This document shows, piece after piece, positions 2,032 through 53,526 of a stretch of 64,000 bases of DNA. Made by a program: the position numbers and the translations under genes. The notes beneath the pieces were generated by a model, which saw nothing but the letters and a program-made list of their open reading frames with translations, made no database searches and was not told where the DNA came from. Numbering within the stretch: position 1 is the first letter of the stretch; each line of letters starts with the position of its first letter. This stretch comes from Hyphomicrobiales bacterium (lineage in GTDB: Bacteria; Pseudomonadota; Alphaproteobacteria; Rhizobiales; Beijerinckiaceae). The stretch lies in contig SEEM01000031.1 in the NCBI GenBank assembly GCA_004144595.1, forward strand, positions 1 through 64,000, given 5' to 3'.

Positions 2032-2046
2032 GAACAAAGAGAGAAC
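2032..2046. promoter_or_regulatory. LexA (SOS) box, alphaproteobacterial type GAAC-N7-GAAC
   Basis: GAACAAAGAGAGAAC read directly, 13 nt before the ATG at 2060 of imuA; known alphaproteobacterial LexA consensus is GTTC-N7-GTTC. Confidence 0.85.
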
Positions 2047-2059
2047 AGTTAGCTTGTGC

Positions 2060-2911
2060 ATGCCAGAAACCGCTCCGACCCTGTCCGATCTGCGCCGCAG
2101 CCTTGCCGAGGCCGCTCTACGGAGCGGCCCGGCAGCGGTCGGCCGGATCGGACTGGGCGTGCCGGGCCTGGATGAGGTCCTGAACGGCGGGCTCGCGCGC
2201 GCGGCGCTGCATGAGATCTATGCTGCCGAAGTCGCCGACCTCGCTGCCGCGACCGGCTTCGCTCTCGGTCTCGCGTTGCGGGCGGGGCAAACGGAGGAGA
2301 AGCCCGCTGAGCGGCCGATCCTCTGGGCGCGGCAGGATTTCGTCGATGCCGAGGCCGGGCGGCTCCATGCCCCGGGGTTGAACGAGCTTGGGCTCGATCC
2401 GGCGCGCCTGCTCTTGGTGCGGGCGCGCGACGGCGAAGGCGTGCTGCGGGCCGGAGCCGAAGCGGCGCGCTGTTCGGCGCTGGGCGCCGTGCTGATCGAG
2501 CCCTGGGGCGAGGCGCGCCCCTTCGATTTGACCGCGAGCCGCCGCCTCGCCCTGGCAGCCGAAGGCTCGGGCGTGCCGGTCCTGCTGCTGCGGGTCGCGG
2601 CGCTCGAGGCGCCCAGCGCGGCGCGCACGCGCTGGCAGGTGAGGGCGCTCGCCTCGCGGGCGCTGGAGGCGAATGCGCCGGGCGCTCCGGCCTTCGCTCT
2701 GAGATTGCTGCGCCAGCGCGGCGGCGCGGCCGAGCGTGAGTGGCGTGTGGAGTGGGACCGTGACCGACATTGCTTTGCGGAACGCAGCCTTTTCGATCGA
2801 TCTTCCCGGACGGACCATGTCGCGCCGCTATCTCGCCCTCTGGTTCCCCTTTCTGGCGACGGACAGGCTGCGGCGGGCGGGCGTGATTCCGGCCTCCGGC
2901 GCACCGGCTGA
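2060..2911 (+). CDS. imuA: ImuA-like (RecA-like) SOS mutagenesis accessory protein
   Basis: MPETAPTLSDLRRSLAEAAL...VGRIGLGVPGLDEVLNGGLARAALHEIYAA; immediately upstream of imuB-dnaE2. Upstream in-frame TTG at 2054 also possible. Confidence 0.85.
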   Translation: MPETAPTLSDLRRSLAEAALRSGPAAVGRIGLGVPGLDEVLNGGLARAALHEIYAAEVADLAAATGFALGLALRAGQTEEKPAERPILWARQDFVDAEAGRLHAPGLNELGLDPARLLLVRARDGEGVLRAGAEAARCSALGAVLIEPWGEARPFDLTASRRLALAAEGSGVPVLLLRVAALEAPSAARTRWQVRALASRALEANAPGAPAFALRLLRQRGGAAEREWRVEWDRDRHCFAERSLFDRSSRTDHVAPLSRPLVPLSGDGQAAAGGRDSGLRRTG

Positions 2912-4361
2912 GAAGCCGCATGTCCTGACCGAGATGCAGGGCAACGCCTTGCGCCTCGTCGCGTGCGACCGGCGCGCCCTCGATCTCGGCCTGACGCGCG
3001 GGATGACGCTGGCCGATGCCCGCGCCCGCATTCCCGATCTCGTCGCACTGGAGACGCAAGCTCAGGCCGACCATGAATTCCTCGAAGCGCTCGCCGGTTT
3101 CTGCGACCGCTTCACGCCCCTGGTCGCGCTCGATGAGCCTGATGGACTGATGCTCGACATCACCGGCTGCGCCCATCTCTTCGGCGGCGAGGCGGGGCTC
3201 GGCAATCTGGCCGGGCGCGCCATGCAGCGCATCGGCCTCACGCTGAAAGCTGCCATCGCCGGCACGCCTGATGCCGCCCGCGCCTGCGCCCGTCATGGCC
3301 GCGGCGGCATCGTCCCGCCCGGCCAGGAGGAGGCGTGGCTCCGCCCGCTGCCGACCGCGGCGCTCGATGCCGACACCGAAACCGTGATCGCGCTCTCGCG
3401 TGCCGGTCTCAAGACGCTGGCCCATCTCGCGGAGCGCCCCTCGGAAACGCTCTCCGCCCGTTTCGGCGAAAAACTGTCAACGAAGCTCCGGCGCATCCTC
3501 GGCCACGAGGATCGCCGGATCACGCCGCTGCGGGCACCGCCCGATTGCGTGGTCGAGCGCCATTTCGCCGAGCCCTTCGCCGATACCGCGAGCCTCGAGG
3601 CGGTGGTCGTCAGGTTGATCGGGGAGGCGGCGCGGGTGCTGGAAGCCCGCGGCGAGGGCGGGCGCGTCTTCGAACTCGGCTTCTTCCGCAGCGACGGCGC
3701 GGTGCGCCGCCTCGCCATCGAGACCGGCCGGCCGTCGCGCGATGCGAAAGCGCTGCTCCGGCTCTATCGTGAGCGCATCGAGACTCTGGCCGATCCGCTC
3801 GATCCCGGCTTCGGTTTCGATGCGATCAAGCTTGCCGTGCCGCTTTGCGAGCCGCTCGATATGCCCCAGCACAGCCTCGACGGCCGGGCGGTCGAGGAGG
3901 ATGCGGTGGCCGATCTGGTCGACCGGCTCGTCACCCGCTTCGGCCGCGACCGGGTGCTGCGCTTCGCGGCACGCGATACGCACCATCCCGTTCGCGCCGC
4001 GAAGGCGCTTTCAGCGGCCGCGCCGCTGCCGGACGCAGCTTGGTCCGCACCGGAGCCGCAGGAGCCGCCGGCCCGCCCGCTCCAGCTTTTCGAGCCGCCG
4101 CAGCCGGTCGAGGCCATCGCCGAGGTGCCGGACGGTCCGCCGATCCGCTTTCGTTGGCGCCGCCTCATCCATGACGTCGCCCGCGCCGAAGGGCCGGAGC
4201 GCATCGCGCCCGAATGGTGGCGCGACGGCTCGGACGAGCCGATGCGCGACTATTACCGCGTCGAGGATGCGCAAGGCCGCCGCTTCTGGCTCTACCGCAC
4301 CGGCTTTTACGAGGCCGAGAGCACTCCGCCGCGCTGGTTCCTGCACGGGCTCTTCGCATGA
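2817..4361 (+). CDS. imuB: ImuB, Y-family DNA polymerase-like protein
   Basis: MSRRYLALWFPFLATDRLRR...LRLVACDRRALDLGLTRGMTLADARA; DinP/UmuC-like; overlaps imuA and dnaE2 ends. Confidence 0.93.
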   Translation: MSRRYLALWFPFLATDRLRRAGVIPASGAPAEKPHVLTEMQGNALRLVACDRRALDLGLTRGMTLADARARIPDLVALETQAQADHEFLEALAGFCDRFTPLVALDEPDGLMLDITGCAHLFGGEAGLGNLAGRAMQRIGLTLKAAIAGTPDAARACARHGRGGIVPPGQEEAWLRPLPTAALDADTETVIALSRAGLKTLAHLAERPSETLSARFGEKLSTKLRRILGHEDRRITPLRAPPDCVVERHFAEPFADTASLEAVVVRLIGEAARVLEARGEGGRVFELGFFRSDGAVRRLAIETGRPSRDAKALLRLYRERIETLADPLDPGFGFDAIKLAVPLCEPLDMPQHSLDGRAVEEDAVADLVDRLVTRFGRDRVLRFAARDTHHPVRAAKALSAAAPLPDAAWSAPEPQEPPARPLQLFEPPQPVEAIAEVPDGPPIRFRWRRLIHDVARAEGPERIAPEWWRDGSDEPMRDYYRVEDAQGRRFWLYRTGFYEAESTPPRWFLHGLFA

Positions 4362-7300
4362 ATCAGATTGCGAATGTCTTCTCCGAACCTGTTGCCGCCA
4401 CGCATTTTTCCTTCCTGCGCGGCGCCTCGCCGGGGCCGCATATGGTGCTGACGGCGCTAATGCTGGGTTATTCCGGCATCGGCATCGCCGATCGCAATAC
4501 GGTGGCGGGAGTCGTGCGCGCCTGGGCGGCGCTGCGGGAACTGCGGGAGACGGGCATGCCGGCCCCCGAAAAGGTGAGGGAGGGCGGCAGTCCCGGCGAA
4601 TATCTCTGGATAGAAAACCCTGCTTTTTCCGATCTGCCGTTCAAGCCGGACGAATTGCTGGCGATGGCGAAGGACTTCAAGCTTGCCACCGGCACCCGCC
4701 TCGTCTTTGCCGACGGTACCCCTGACATCGTCGTCTATCCCGCCAATCGCGCCGGCTGGGGGCGGCTCTGCCGCCTGCTCAGCCATGGCAACCTGAAGGA
4801 GGGCGTGAAGAAGGGCGAATGCCACCTCGTCCTCGAAGACCTCCTGAACGATGCCCGCGACCTGTTGCTGATCCTGATGCCGGCGCGCCGCCTCGAGGGC
4901 CTGCCCGCATTGCTTGCCCGGCTTGACGATGCCGCTCCCGGCGCGGTCTGGCTCGCCGCCAGCATGCACCGGCGCGGCGACGACCGCCGCCGCCTTGCGC
5001 GGCTCAAGGCGATCGCCGCGGCGACCCGCACGCCGCTGATCGCGACCAATGACGCGCTCTACGATTCGATCGCGCAGCGCGACCTGCAGGACGTGCTGAC
5101 CTGCATCCGCGAGGGCACCACCATCGAGCGGGCCGGGCGCCTGCTCGAATCCAATGCCGAGCGTCATCTCAAGCTGCCGCAGGAAATGGCCCGGCTTTTT
5201 CGGGATGCGCCCGAAGCCATCGCCGAGACGCAAGCTCTCTTCTCCCGCATCGAGTTCGATCTCGGCCAGCTCAAATACGAATACCCCGACGAGCCGATCC
5301 CGCCAGGCTGGAAGGATCAGGACTGGCTGGTGGAACTGGTCCGCCGCTGCTGCCTAATCCGCTACCCCGATGGCGTTTCGGACAAGGTTCAGCACTTGCT
5401 GGCGAAGGAGCTCGAGTTGATCGGAAAGCTCGATTACGCCCGCTATTTCCTGACGATCCGCCAGATCGTCGAGGTCGCCGAAAGCAAGGGCATCCTCTGC
5501 CAGGGCCGCGGTTCGGCCGCCAATTCCGCCGTCTGCTACGTGCTAGGCATCACCGCTGTCGACCCGGCCGAGAACGACGTGCTGTTCGAGCGCTTCATCT
5601 CGACCCAGCGCAAGGAACCGCCCGACATCGACGTCGATTTCGAGCATGAGCGGCGCGAGGAGGTGATCCAGTGGATCTATGAATTCTATGGCCGCCACCG
5701 CGCCGGCATCGCCGCGACCGTGATCCATTACCGGCCGCGCAGCGCCATCCGCGAGGCCGGCAAGGTGCTGGGCCTGACCGAGGACGTCACCGCTCGCATC
5801 GCCGATACCAATTGGGGAAGCTGGGGCAGCGAGATCGGCGATGCCCGCGTTCGCCAGGCCGGGCTTGAACCGACGAACCCGACGATCCGCCGTGCCGTCG
5901 ATTTCGCCACCCGGTTATTGGGTTATCCGCGCCATCTTTCGCAGCATGTCGGCGGCTTCGTCCTGTCGCGCGGGCGCCTCGACGAGACCGTGCCGATCGG
6001 CAACGCCGCGATGGACAAGCGCACCTTCATCGAATGGGATCGCGACGATATCGACGAACTCGGGCTGATGAAGGTCGATATTCTGGCGTTGGGCATGCTG
6101 ACCTGCATCCGCAAGGCGTTCGATCTGCTGCGCGAGCACGAGGGCATCGACTGGGGGCTCGCCGACGTGCCGAATAACGACGAGGCGACCTACGACATGC
6201 TCTGCGAGGGCAAGTCGCTCGGCGTCTTCCAGGTCGAGAGCCGCGCCCAGATGAACATGCTCCCTCGGCTCAAGCCCCGGGAGTTCTACGATCTCGTCAT
6301 CCAGGTCGCGATCGTCCGCCCCGGCCCGATCCAGGGCAATATGGTGCATCCTTACCTTAAGCGTCGGGCAGGGATCGAGGAGGTGACCTATCCCTCGCCA
6401 GCGCCGAAACATGGCCGTGCCGATGAACTCTACGAGGTGTTGAGGAAGACCTTCGGTGTGCCGCTCTTCCAGGAACAGGCGATGAGGCTCGCCATGGTGG
6501 CCGCGAAGTTCGACGACATCGAAGCCAACGGCCTGCGCAAGGCGATGGCGACCTTCCGCAACGACGGCACCATCGGCCACTACGAAGAGAAGATGGTCGA
6601 GCGCATGGTCACGCGCGGCTATGAGCGCGATTTCGCCCAGCGCTGCTTCGATCAGATCAAGGGCTTCGGCAGCTACGGCTTTCCGGAAAGCCATGCGGCT
6701 TCCTTCGCCAAGCTGGTCTACATCTCCTCCTATCTCAAGAAGCACCATCCGGCAGCCTTCGCCTGTGCGCTGCTGAATTCCCAGCCCATGGGCTTCTATG
6801 CCCCGGCCCAGATCGTCCGGGAGGCGGAGGAGAATGGCGGCGTCGAGCCGCGGCCGGTCGATGTGAATCTGAGCGCCTGGGATAATCGGCTGGAGGCGGT
6901 CGAGGCCCCCACGACGAGGGTCGGGTTCGATGACTGGCCCCAAAAATGCGCGGGGAACCCTCTCCCGGAGGGAGAGGGCAGGGTGAGGGGTAGGCCGTTG
7001 AAAAATTGGCCGAAAGCCCACCGCGGCTCTGTCGATGCATGGCGACCAACTGGTCCAGGGGCCGACACCTCACCCCTACCCCTCTCCTTACAGGAGAGGG
7101 GATCCCCCGGTTCTCGCACTCGAAGTTCAGCAGGATCGCATGCGAAAAAACACCCCTTCGCCCTGCGTCTCGGCTTCCGACAGATCGATAGCTTCAAGGA
7201 AGATTGGGGTAAGGCGATTGCCGGGGAACGCGAAGCGTGCGGCCCTTACCGTGATGTCGAGGAACTGATGCGCCGAGCCTGCCTTCCCGCCCGCGCCATG

Positions 7301-7975
7301 CGCCTGCTCGCCGATGCCGATGCCTTCCGCTCGTTGGGTCTCGACCGGCGCGAGGCGCTATGGGCGGTGCGGCGCCTGCCGGACGATTCCGCGCTGCCGC
7401 TCTTCCAGGTCGCGCAGGCCCGCGAGCTGGGTTCGGAGCGGGCCATGGCGCTGCCGGTCATGCCGCTGGCCGAGCATATCGTCGCCGATTACCAGACCGT
7501 GCGGCTCTCGCTGAAGGGGCACCCGATGCAGCTCCTGCGCCCGCGCTTCCGCCGTGAGGGCATTCTGAGCTGCGCCGAGACCGAGGCGAGGCCCGATGCC
7601 GCCTTCGTCCGCACGGCGGGGATCGTGCTGGTGCGCCAGCGGCCGGGCAATGGCAACGCCATCTTCGTCACGCTGGAGGACGAGACCGGCGTCACCAATG
7701 TCGTGATCTGGGCGCGATTGTTCGAGCGCTTCCGCCGCGAAGTCATGGGCGCACGATTGATGCTGGTCGAGGGCCGGGTGCAGAAGAGCGTCGAGGGCGT
7801 CACCCATCTCATGGCTCAGCGCATCTTCGACCGCTCGGTCGACCTGCTCTCGCTTTCGGATACCCACCGCGCCGAGGTTCCGATGCACATCGACGAACTG
7901 AAGAACCCGCCTTTGCCGCGCCATCGCCACCCGCGCAATGTCCGCATCCTCCCGAAATCGCGGGATTTCCATTGA
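4358..7975 (+). CDS. dnaE2: Error-prone DNA polymerase DnaE2
   Basis: ATGA overlap with imuB; PHP domain at N-terminus, GRGSAANSAVCYVLGIT, PPDIDVDFEHERREEVIQ, GFPESHAASFAKLVYISSYLKKHHP. Contains an in-frame repeat insertion at about 6.91-7.14 kb. Confidence 0.95.
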   Translation: MNQIANVFSEPVAATHFSFLRGASPGPHMVLTALMLGYSGIGIADRNTVAGVVRAWAALRELRETGMPAPEKVREGGSPGEYLWIENPAFSDLPFKPDELLAMAKDFKLATGTRLVFADGTPDIVVYPANRAGWGRLCRLLSHGNLKEGVKKGECHLVLEDLLNDARDLLLILMPARRLEGLPALLARLDDAAPGAVWLAASMHRRGDDRRRLARLKAIAAATRTPLIATNDALYDSIAQRDLQDVLTCIREGTTIERAGRLLESNAERHLKLPQEMARLFRDAPEAIAETQALFSRIEFDLGQLKYEYPDEPIPPGWKDQDWLVELVRRCCLIRYPDGVSDKVQHLLAKELELIGKLDYARYFLTIRQIVEVAESKGILCQGRGSAANSAVCYVLGITAVDPAENDVLFERFISTQRKEPPDIDVDFEHERREEVIQWIYEFYGRHRAGIAATVIHYRPRSAIREAGKVLGLTEDVTARIADTNWGSWGSEIGDARVRQAGLEPTNPTIRRAVDFATRLLGYPRHLSQHVGGFVLSRGRLDETVPIGNAAMDKRTFIEWDRDDIDELGLMKVDILALGMLTCIRKAFDLLREHEGIDWGLADVPNNDEATYDMLCEGKSLGVFQVESRAQMNMLPRLKPREFYDLVIQVAIVRPGPIQGNMVHPYLKRRAGIEEVTYPSPAPKHGRADELYEVLRKTFGVPLFQEQAMRLAMVAAKFDDIEANGLRKAMATFRNDGTIGHYEEKMVERMVTRGYERDFAQRCFDQIKGFGSYGFPESHAASFAKLVYISSYLKKHHPAAFACALLNSQPMGFYAPAQIVREAEENGGVEPRPVDVNLSAWDNRLEAVEAPTTRVGFDDWPQKCAGNPLPEGEGRVRGRPLKNWPKAHRGSVDAWRPTGPGADTSPLPLSLQERGSPGSRTRSSAGSHAKKHPFALRLGFRQIDSFKEDWGKAIAGEREACGPYRDVEELMRRACLPARAMRLLADADAFRSLGLDRREALWAVRRLPDDSALPLFQVAQARELGSERAMALPVMPLAEHIVADYQTVRLSLKGHPMQLLRPRFRREGILSCAETEARPDAAFVRTAGIVLVRQRPGNGNAIFVTLEDETGVTNVVIWARLFERFRREVMGARLMLVEGRVQKSVEGVTHLMAQRIFDRSVDLLSLSDTHRAEVPMHIDELKNPPLPRHRHPRNVRILPKSRDFH
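6952..7107. repeat. Pair of inverted REP-like palindromes (family E) inside dnaE2
   Basis: CCCTCTCCCGGAGGGAGAGGGCAGGGTGAGGGG (left) and CCTCACCCCTACCCCTCTCCTTACAGGAGAGGGG (right) are each hairpins and are inverted relative to one another; reading frame stays open. Confidence 0.85.
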
Positions 7976-52757: not shown

Positions 52758-53526
52758 GGTTCCCATTTCGTTATCTTCAATATTTTCAAGTGTTTGATCT
52801 TCAACGCTTTTTGCACAATGGCCGCTTTTCGCGTTCTTGTTCTGTCTGTGTTCAGCGACTGGCCGGGCGCCGGCCAGTCTGCCGGCTCGCTGTCTCGCGT
52901 TCGAATGCCGCCGCGATATGGCCAGGCTTCGAACGCCCGCCCCGTTCGTTACGCCTCCTCATGCATGGTGGCCTTGTTGAAAAGAGGGTAGCGGCTCACT
53001 CGCACGCTCCATATTTTTGTTGCGATGCACAATGACGCTGCATCGCAACCGGGCTGTGAGGCTGACATGGCAAAAAGGAACTCCGGCTCGGTCCGGCGGC
53101 GCAAGTCCTCCGAGCACCGCAAGCAGTGGCGCGCGATCGTCGAAGCCTGGAAACAGGGTGACCTGGAGTGGCAGGGCGCCTGGGGTCCCGCGCCCGGCCA
53201 GGCAGGCTGCTTGTGCCCCCGCCCCATATTGGTCGAGCTCGGGCTGGCGGCCTCCGCGGCCGCTTGACGGGTCCAGATGCCTTCGCCGGCCTGTTGAGGG
53301 GCGCCTTGGATTGGGTCGCCTGCGCTGGTGGTGCCCAGGCTCCTGCGGTGCGGAGCAGGGAAAGCTCGATTACCGCGTGTTAATCGATGACGGGGAGAAT
53401 GATCGCGAGGCCAAGCTTTCGGCCGCAATGGACTCCATGAGGGGTGGCGATCGTGGAACTGGCGATTCTCTGGCTGCTCTGCGCGGCCGTCTTCCTCGAT
53501 CTGGCCGAGAACGCGCCCGAGATCGA

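Follow-up and report, generated by a model that had tools for sequence, protein, structure and literature searches.

Unrelated palindromic repeats recurrently occupy, in frame, one turn of the error-prone DNA polymerase DnaE2

Palindromic repeats that lie in frame have been described chiefly in Rickettsia and Wolbachia, where elements of 100-150 bp are found within the reading frames of conserved proteins, at positions exposed to solvent (PMC3767692, PMC2229807, PMC10969869). Different groups of these Rickettsia palindromic elements (RPE) are reported close to one position within a single gene, that for DNA polymerase III alpha among them, and the authors of the R. japonica work left undecided whether different elements at one site reflect a hotspot or a common origin (PMC3767692). 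Intragenic MITEs, such as the 107-bp Correia element of Neisseria, YPAL of Yersinia and QMITE of Coxiella, also supply repeat frames that form in-frame fusions with genes (PMC2229807, PMC10969869), while the Caulobacter CIR carries stops in all six frames (PMC2229807). Our literature search found no report of unrelated families repeatedly using one protein turn. We describe such a case here, in which a turn of DnaE2 serves as a hotspot for several repeat families of unrelated sequence, both within one genus and beyond it, and in which the host protein is the polymerase responsible for stress-induced mutations.

The locus lies in the window, by which we mean the whole stretch of 64,000 nucleotides that was analysed (GC 66%), and its features are as follows.

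2032..2046, no strand assigned: LexA box of the alphaproteobacterial form GTTC-N7-GTTC, 8 bp upstream of the imuA-like gene
2054..2911, plus strand: imuA-like gene, assigned from gene order; no Pfam match
2817..4361, plus strand: imuB, Y-family polymerase-like (PF00817, PF11799); its stop overlaps the dnaE2 start
4358..7975, plus strand: dnaE2 (imuC), error-prone DNA polymerase and host of the element (NF004225; PF07733, PF17657, PF14579, PF01336)
6911..7138, plus strand: predicted disordered loop, pLDDT below 50 (AlphaFold, fragment residues 288-363), between the beta strands NRLE and ALRL
6949..7110, plus strand: compound palindromic element of family A, 54 codons, in frame in dnaE2; ends taken from the alignment of copies and located in the window
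6958..6978, no strand assigned: left terminal hairpin CCCTCTCCCGGAGGGAGAGGG, seen in the window sequence
6982..7087, no strand assigned: inner inverted repeat, arms 6982-6994 and 7075-7087, 13 nt, 92%
about 7079..7101, no strand assigned: right terminal hairpin CCCCTCTCCTTACAGGAGAGGGG, seen in the window sequence

The host gene belongs to an imuA-imuB-dnaE2 cassette behind a LexA box, and it encodes a polymerase that is induced by damage and is non-essential. As the GTTC-N7-GTTC pattern occurs four times in the window against 1.2 expected, it is the position of the box at 2032-2046 that supports it. A further LexA-box-like sequence, GTTCTGTCTGTGTTC, lies at 52839-52853, with no clear SOS gene among the adjoining listed ORFs.

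The initial annotation had reported two inverted hairpins within an open DnaE2 frame, and both are present; the frame runs through all 54 codons with no stop, and the product scores as intact against NF004225 (1352 bits with a cut-off of 939, profile positions 5-1047 of 1047). It had read the hairpins as a pair of repeats, which does not stand, for each is one end of a single compound, GC-rich element of 162 bp, CGCGGGGAACC...GGATCCCCCGG, most of whose length is spanned by an imperfect inverted repeat. Near-full-length copies of this family, which we call A, number 15 in the draft genome when the dnaE2 copy is included, with partial ones besides, and the 14 others are 72-84% identical to the window element (E 1e-14 to 1e-42). 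Because DNA-level copies lie elsewhere in the same genome, a chance origin of the hairpins is untenable. Alignment of 16 same-genome copies revealed common ends (CGCGGGGAA...TTCCCCGCG), conserved arms, a variable centre and unrelated flanks; terminal inverted repeats are present, as in MITEs, and the aligned ends, read by eye, have no obvious target-site duplication. Among about 20 family A sites in this genome dnaE2 is the one recognised gene whose frame is open on both sides, the other open frames at these sites having been judged by eye. Family A is a dispersed, mostly non-coding, non-autonomous repeat, and the proposal that an intergenic-type palindrome had come to lie inside a coding gene is borne out at the DNA level.

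Searches for family A in plasmids and in Rfam at gathering score returned no match, and the 54-codon insert contains no Pfam domain. The Rfam microRNA models that appeared are chance hairpin matches, with E-values above 0.01 and scores far under gathering, and a self-splicing insert, whether intein or intron, was rejected given only 54 codons and no splicing domain or ribozyme in Pfam or Rfam.

The rhizobial mosaic elements RIME and ABC and the Caulobacter CIR are dispersed palindromes of Alphaproteobacteria, about 100-150 bp long. Family A resembles them in being a dispersed palindromic repeat (RIME being compared by description), but all three are described as intergenic. It shares with REP, BIME and REPIN the short palindromes, the inverted pairs and a mostly intergenic location; in contrast to REP or REPIN with a RAYT, no REP-associated transposase (Y1_Tnp, PF01797) was found in its own draft genome at E 0.01. 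The fusion of its reading frame to a host gene is what it has in common with intragenic MITEs. A resemblance to RPE had been suggested, and family A does work like RPE, being a dispersed palindromic repeat (162 bp, 15 near-full-length copies) found in frame in conserved proteins, whereas membership of the RPE family is not supported in this comparison by description. Unlike RPE, the elements here are GC-rich, reside in free-living-type bacteria and mostly lie outside genes, and where RPE enter many genes per genome only dnaE2 was recognised among the roughly 20 own-genome sites; one gene and one turn dominate, and the occupant families are unrelated. A small-genome DnaE1 set was searched for Rickettsia with an RPE in DnaE and none was recognised.

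We extracted the segment between WDNxLE and ALRLG from 37 same-genus genomes and then from four more, and the turn in these 41 is occupied as follows.

9 of 41 genomes: family A (G002 additionally with half a B and a further repeat)
7 of 41 genomes: families B and/or C
4 of 41 genomes: family D
2 of 41 genomes: short CCCTCCCCCCGC palindrome
5 of 41 genomes: non-palindromic loop, 22 aa
1 of 41 genomes: non-palindromic loop, 27 aa
13 of 41 genomes: short turn, 8-11 aa

A palindromic repeat is thus present in 22 of the 41; these repeats represent five or more dispersed families, unrelated to one another and sometimes stacked. Families B and C are abundant across the genus, family A gives tens of match rows in several relatives (palindromic copies being countable on both strands), the family D arm occurs at several dispersed sites per genome in four genomes (control pattern 0), and the short CCCTCCCCCCGC palindrome is found at dozens of dispersed sites. 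Since relatives hold several unrelated repeats in exactly the same loop, the turn has repeatedly received selfish DNA and is not the scene of a single accident. An insert of at least 15 aa at the turn column was seen in 50 of 116 DnaE2 proteins (the next sites have 12-14), and 31 of 102 loops fold with z below -3 as single strands, against 0 of 31 control windows of the same genes below -2.0. The corresponding span of DnaE1 is uniform in nearly all of the 41 genomes, and a second DnaE2-like paralogue, seen in 11 copies, has an empty turn of 7-8 aa. When relatives were aligned the window insert proved absent from many close ones, with the frame kept; the pattern that would speak against an insertion, with every homologue carrying the peptide and no DNA repeats elsewhere, was looked for and is not what we found.

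That the insert is an assembly artefact, or its host a pseudogene, is highly improbable. The window comes from a draft genome of 431 contigs with 5.25% contamination, and contigs of two relatives (G015, G019) break at the site; nevertheless, same-genus genomes of only 1-3 contigs carry in-frame palindromic inserts there (A in G010 and G023, B or B+C in G032 and G073, D in G020), so that draft assembly is not the cause, and the dnaE2 flanks are under purifying selection. In G072 (L322, L233) a short palindrome lies in the turn with the frame broken, through real gene loss or a homopolymer error, a sequencing error in a C/G run being possible. Further repeat-like in-frame inserts occur in other DnaE2 loops (L088, L109, L125, L131, L140; for example SPLAGEVAAERRVRG near column 881).

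When the occupants are placed on a DnaE2 tree that leaves out the loop, they interleave, with 14 changes in total. Between genomes whose dnaE2 is 92-96% identical the occupants differ (A in G001, D in G008 and G020, B in G032), and at 95-96% identity the turn is empty in G009 and filled by B+C in G027. A tentative alternative, which we hold possible but do not favour, is that family A inserted once near the base of the genus and was then lost, replaced or exchanged laterally as a loop, the hotspot being mostly inheritance and recombination. The flanking stubs beside family A copies of different species in several clades are alike by eye, so that a single old insertion followed by loss, or interspecies exchange, could account for part of the pattern; a TTGAAGAAA-like stub lies beside family B in G002, G024, G027 and G032 and is absent from the other B copies fetched, and family A needs at the least five changes on the tree. 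Against this, the divergence of the family A element (13-32%) is below the flank dS (0.45-0.81), and the resident A copies are no nearer to one another than to non-resident copies. With five or more unrelated families at the site, several insertions are needed in any case. The unrelated occupants, the free-living-type hosts, the differing occupants at 92-96% identity and the paralogue controls together make the question of hotspot or old insertion a testable one.

The element had been expected to add a loop of about 80 aa near the C-terminal part of the polymerase. A loop of this kind is indeed predicted, but the element itself contributes only 54 aa and the rest is non-repeat flank. In the AlphaFold model, built from a 53-row alignment, the insert forms a disordered surface loop in a beta-hairpin turn, with the blocks beside it above 90 pLDDT and the flanking fold well modelled. 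By sequence the turn matches about residues 882-890 of Thermus DNA polymerase III alpha, and it lies at the N-terminal edge of HHH_6 in DnaE2. This position, at the start of the (HhH)2 / beta-binding region, is one reason to consider functional recruitment, in which a long flexible loop alters the docking of DnaE2 on ImuB or the clamp and any repeat can supply the favoured loop. A model of the M. tuberculosis mutasome has the (HhH)2 region of DnaE2 in contact with the ImuB thumb (PMC12926913), and the convergence of unrelated repeats on one site would fit. We nevertheless consider recruitment improbable. Among resident family A copies dN is about equal to dS within the element, with dN/dS of 0.11-0.22 in the flanks, and the insert peptide therefore looks unconstrained; the centre is variable, no peptide is conserved across the occupant families, many species have only 8-11 aa in the turn, and that of the paralogue stays short. 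In an attempt at dating by dN/dS the arms were found to be conserved in every family A copy.

What is kept is the reading frame. All nine resident family A copies are stop-free in the same register, as compared with 5 of 27 other copies (Fisher p=2e-5, relatedness ignored). We propose that selfish repeats, passed by a reading-frame filter, build up where a non-essential polymerase has a permissive turn, a reading to which we assign a probability of roughly 0.7. A non-autonomous family A repeat would land in frame at the beta-hairpin turn of the DnaE2 HhH_6 region and be read as extra protein, giving a disordered surface loop that the enzyme presumably tolerates. Given the permissive turn and a non-essential, damage-induced DnaE2, frame-open insertions would persist and out-of-frame ones would mostly be lost. 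The existing loop may then act as a safe harbour in which unrelated repeats stack beside the first or replace it, and such stacking would be the cause of the hotspot. The broken frame in G072 counts against this explanation, as would a cost that the strong mRNA hairpins could carry. Ribosome skipping of the insert was also considered, and the kept stop-free frame argues against it.

Repeat-like inserts in the same turn were seen beyond the genus, among named loci of Azospirillum, Roseomonas, Caulobacteraceae, Erythrobacter, Novosphingobium, Planctomycetota and others. In Azospirillum, Roseomonas and a planctomycete the genome itself contains multiple copies of the insert DNA, while the insert DNA of Novosphingobium and Erythrobacter has fewer own-genome matches, which are partly self-matches. 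In Bradyrhizobium (L072, L073, L075-L080, L086) in-frame repeat-like inserts lie at a second site, GFHWLDEDEERLK...DWAD, about 20 aa downstream of the turn, and Bradyrhizobium insert DNA too is multi-copy in its own genome. The named loci were ranked by similarity to the query, and as this query itself carries an insert the set is biased to insert bearers. To correct that bias, 75 DnaE2 proteins, that of the window included, were drawn evenly from the class, and a repeat-like insert of at least 40 aa was found in the turn of 1 of the 74 others (L247), a sharply lower class-wide estimate than that from the named loci. Insertion in the turn recurs but is uncommon outside certain lineages, and a permissive turn alone does not explain the genus.

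Insertion could instead be directed, with a mobility system recognising the DNA of the turn or the resident hairpins and no filtering required. Palindromes are nested or adjacent at the site in G002, G027, L095 and L125, and the occupant families are unrelated in sequence, both of which would fit. We regard this target-site preference as unlikely, given that no Y1 transposase was found in the draft genome that holds the window, and given the absence of a common flank beside copies elsewhere in the alignments read, and the empty turn of a paralogue of homologous sequence. It is similarly doubtful that the turn is an evolutionary landing pad at which unrelated repeats are captured again and again, either for the usefulness of a long variable loop in a mutator polymerase or through targeting by a mobility system; were this so, fast-evolving, species-specific versions of the mutasome would be expected. 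In the loop inserts of L095, L083 and L125 palindromes are nested within palindromes, the arms being short tandem units such as CGGAGACACGGAGACACGGAG.

Finally, family A occupies a second host gene, a GT28-type glycosyltransferase whose interdomain linker holds the element in frame in two species (G015 and G027).

1458..3005 of L335, minus strand: GT28-type glycosyltransferase with family A
1455..3179 of L334, minus strand: GT28-type glycosyltransferase with family A

The frame of the element is the same as in DnaE2. Two further long ORFs with an open family A frame (L336, L338) have no recognised domain across the element. Four family A copies lie in tandem in G011 (L336:1856-2699).
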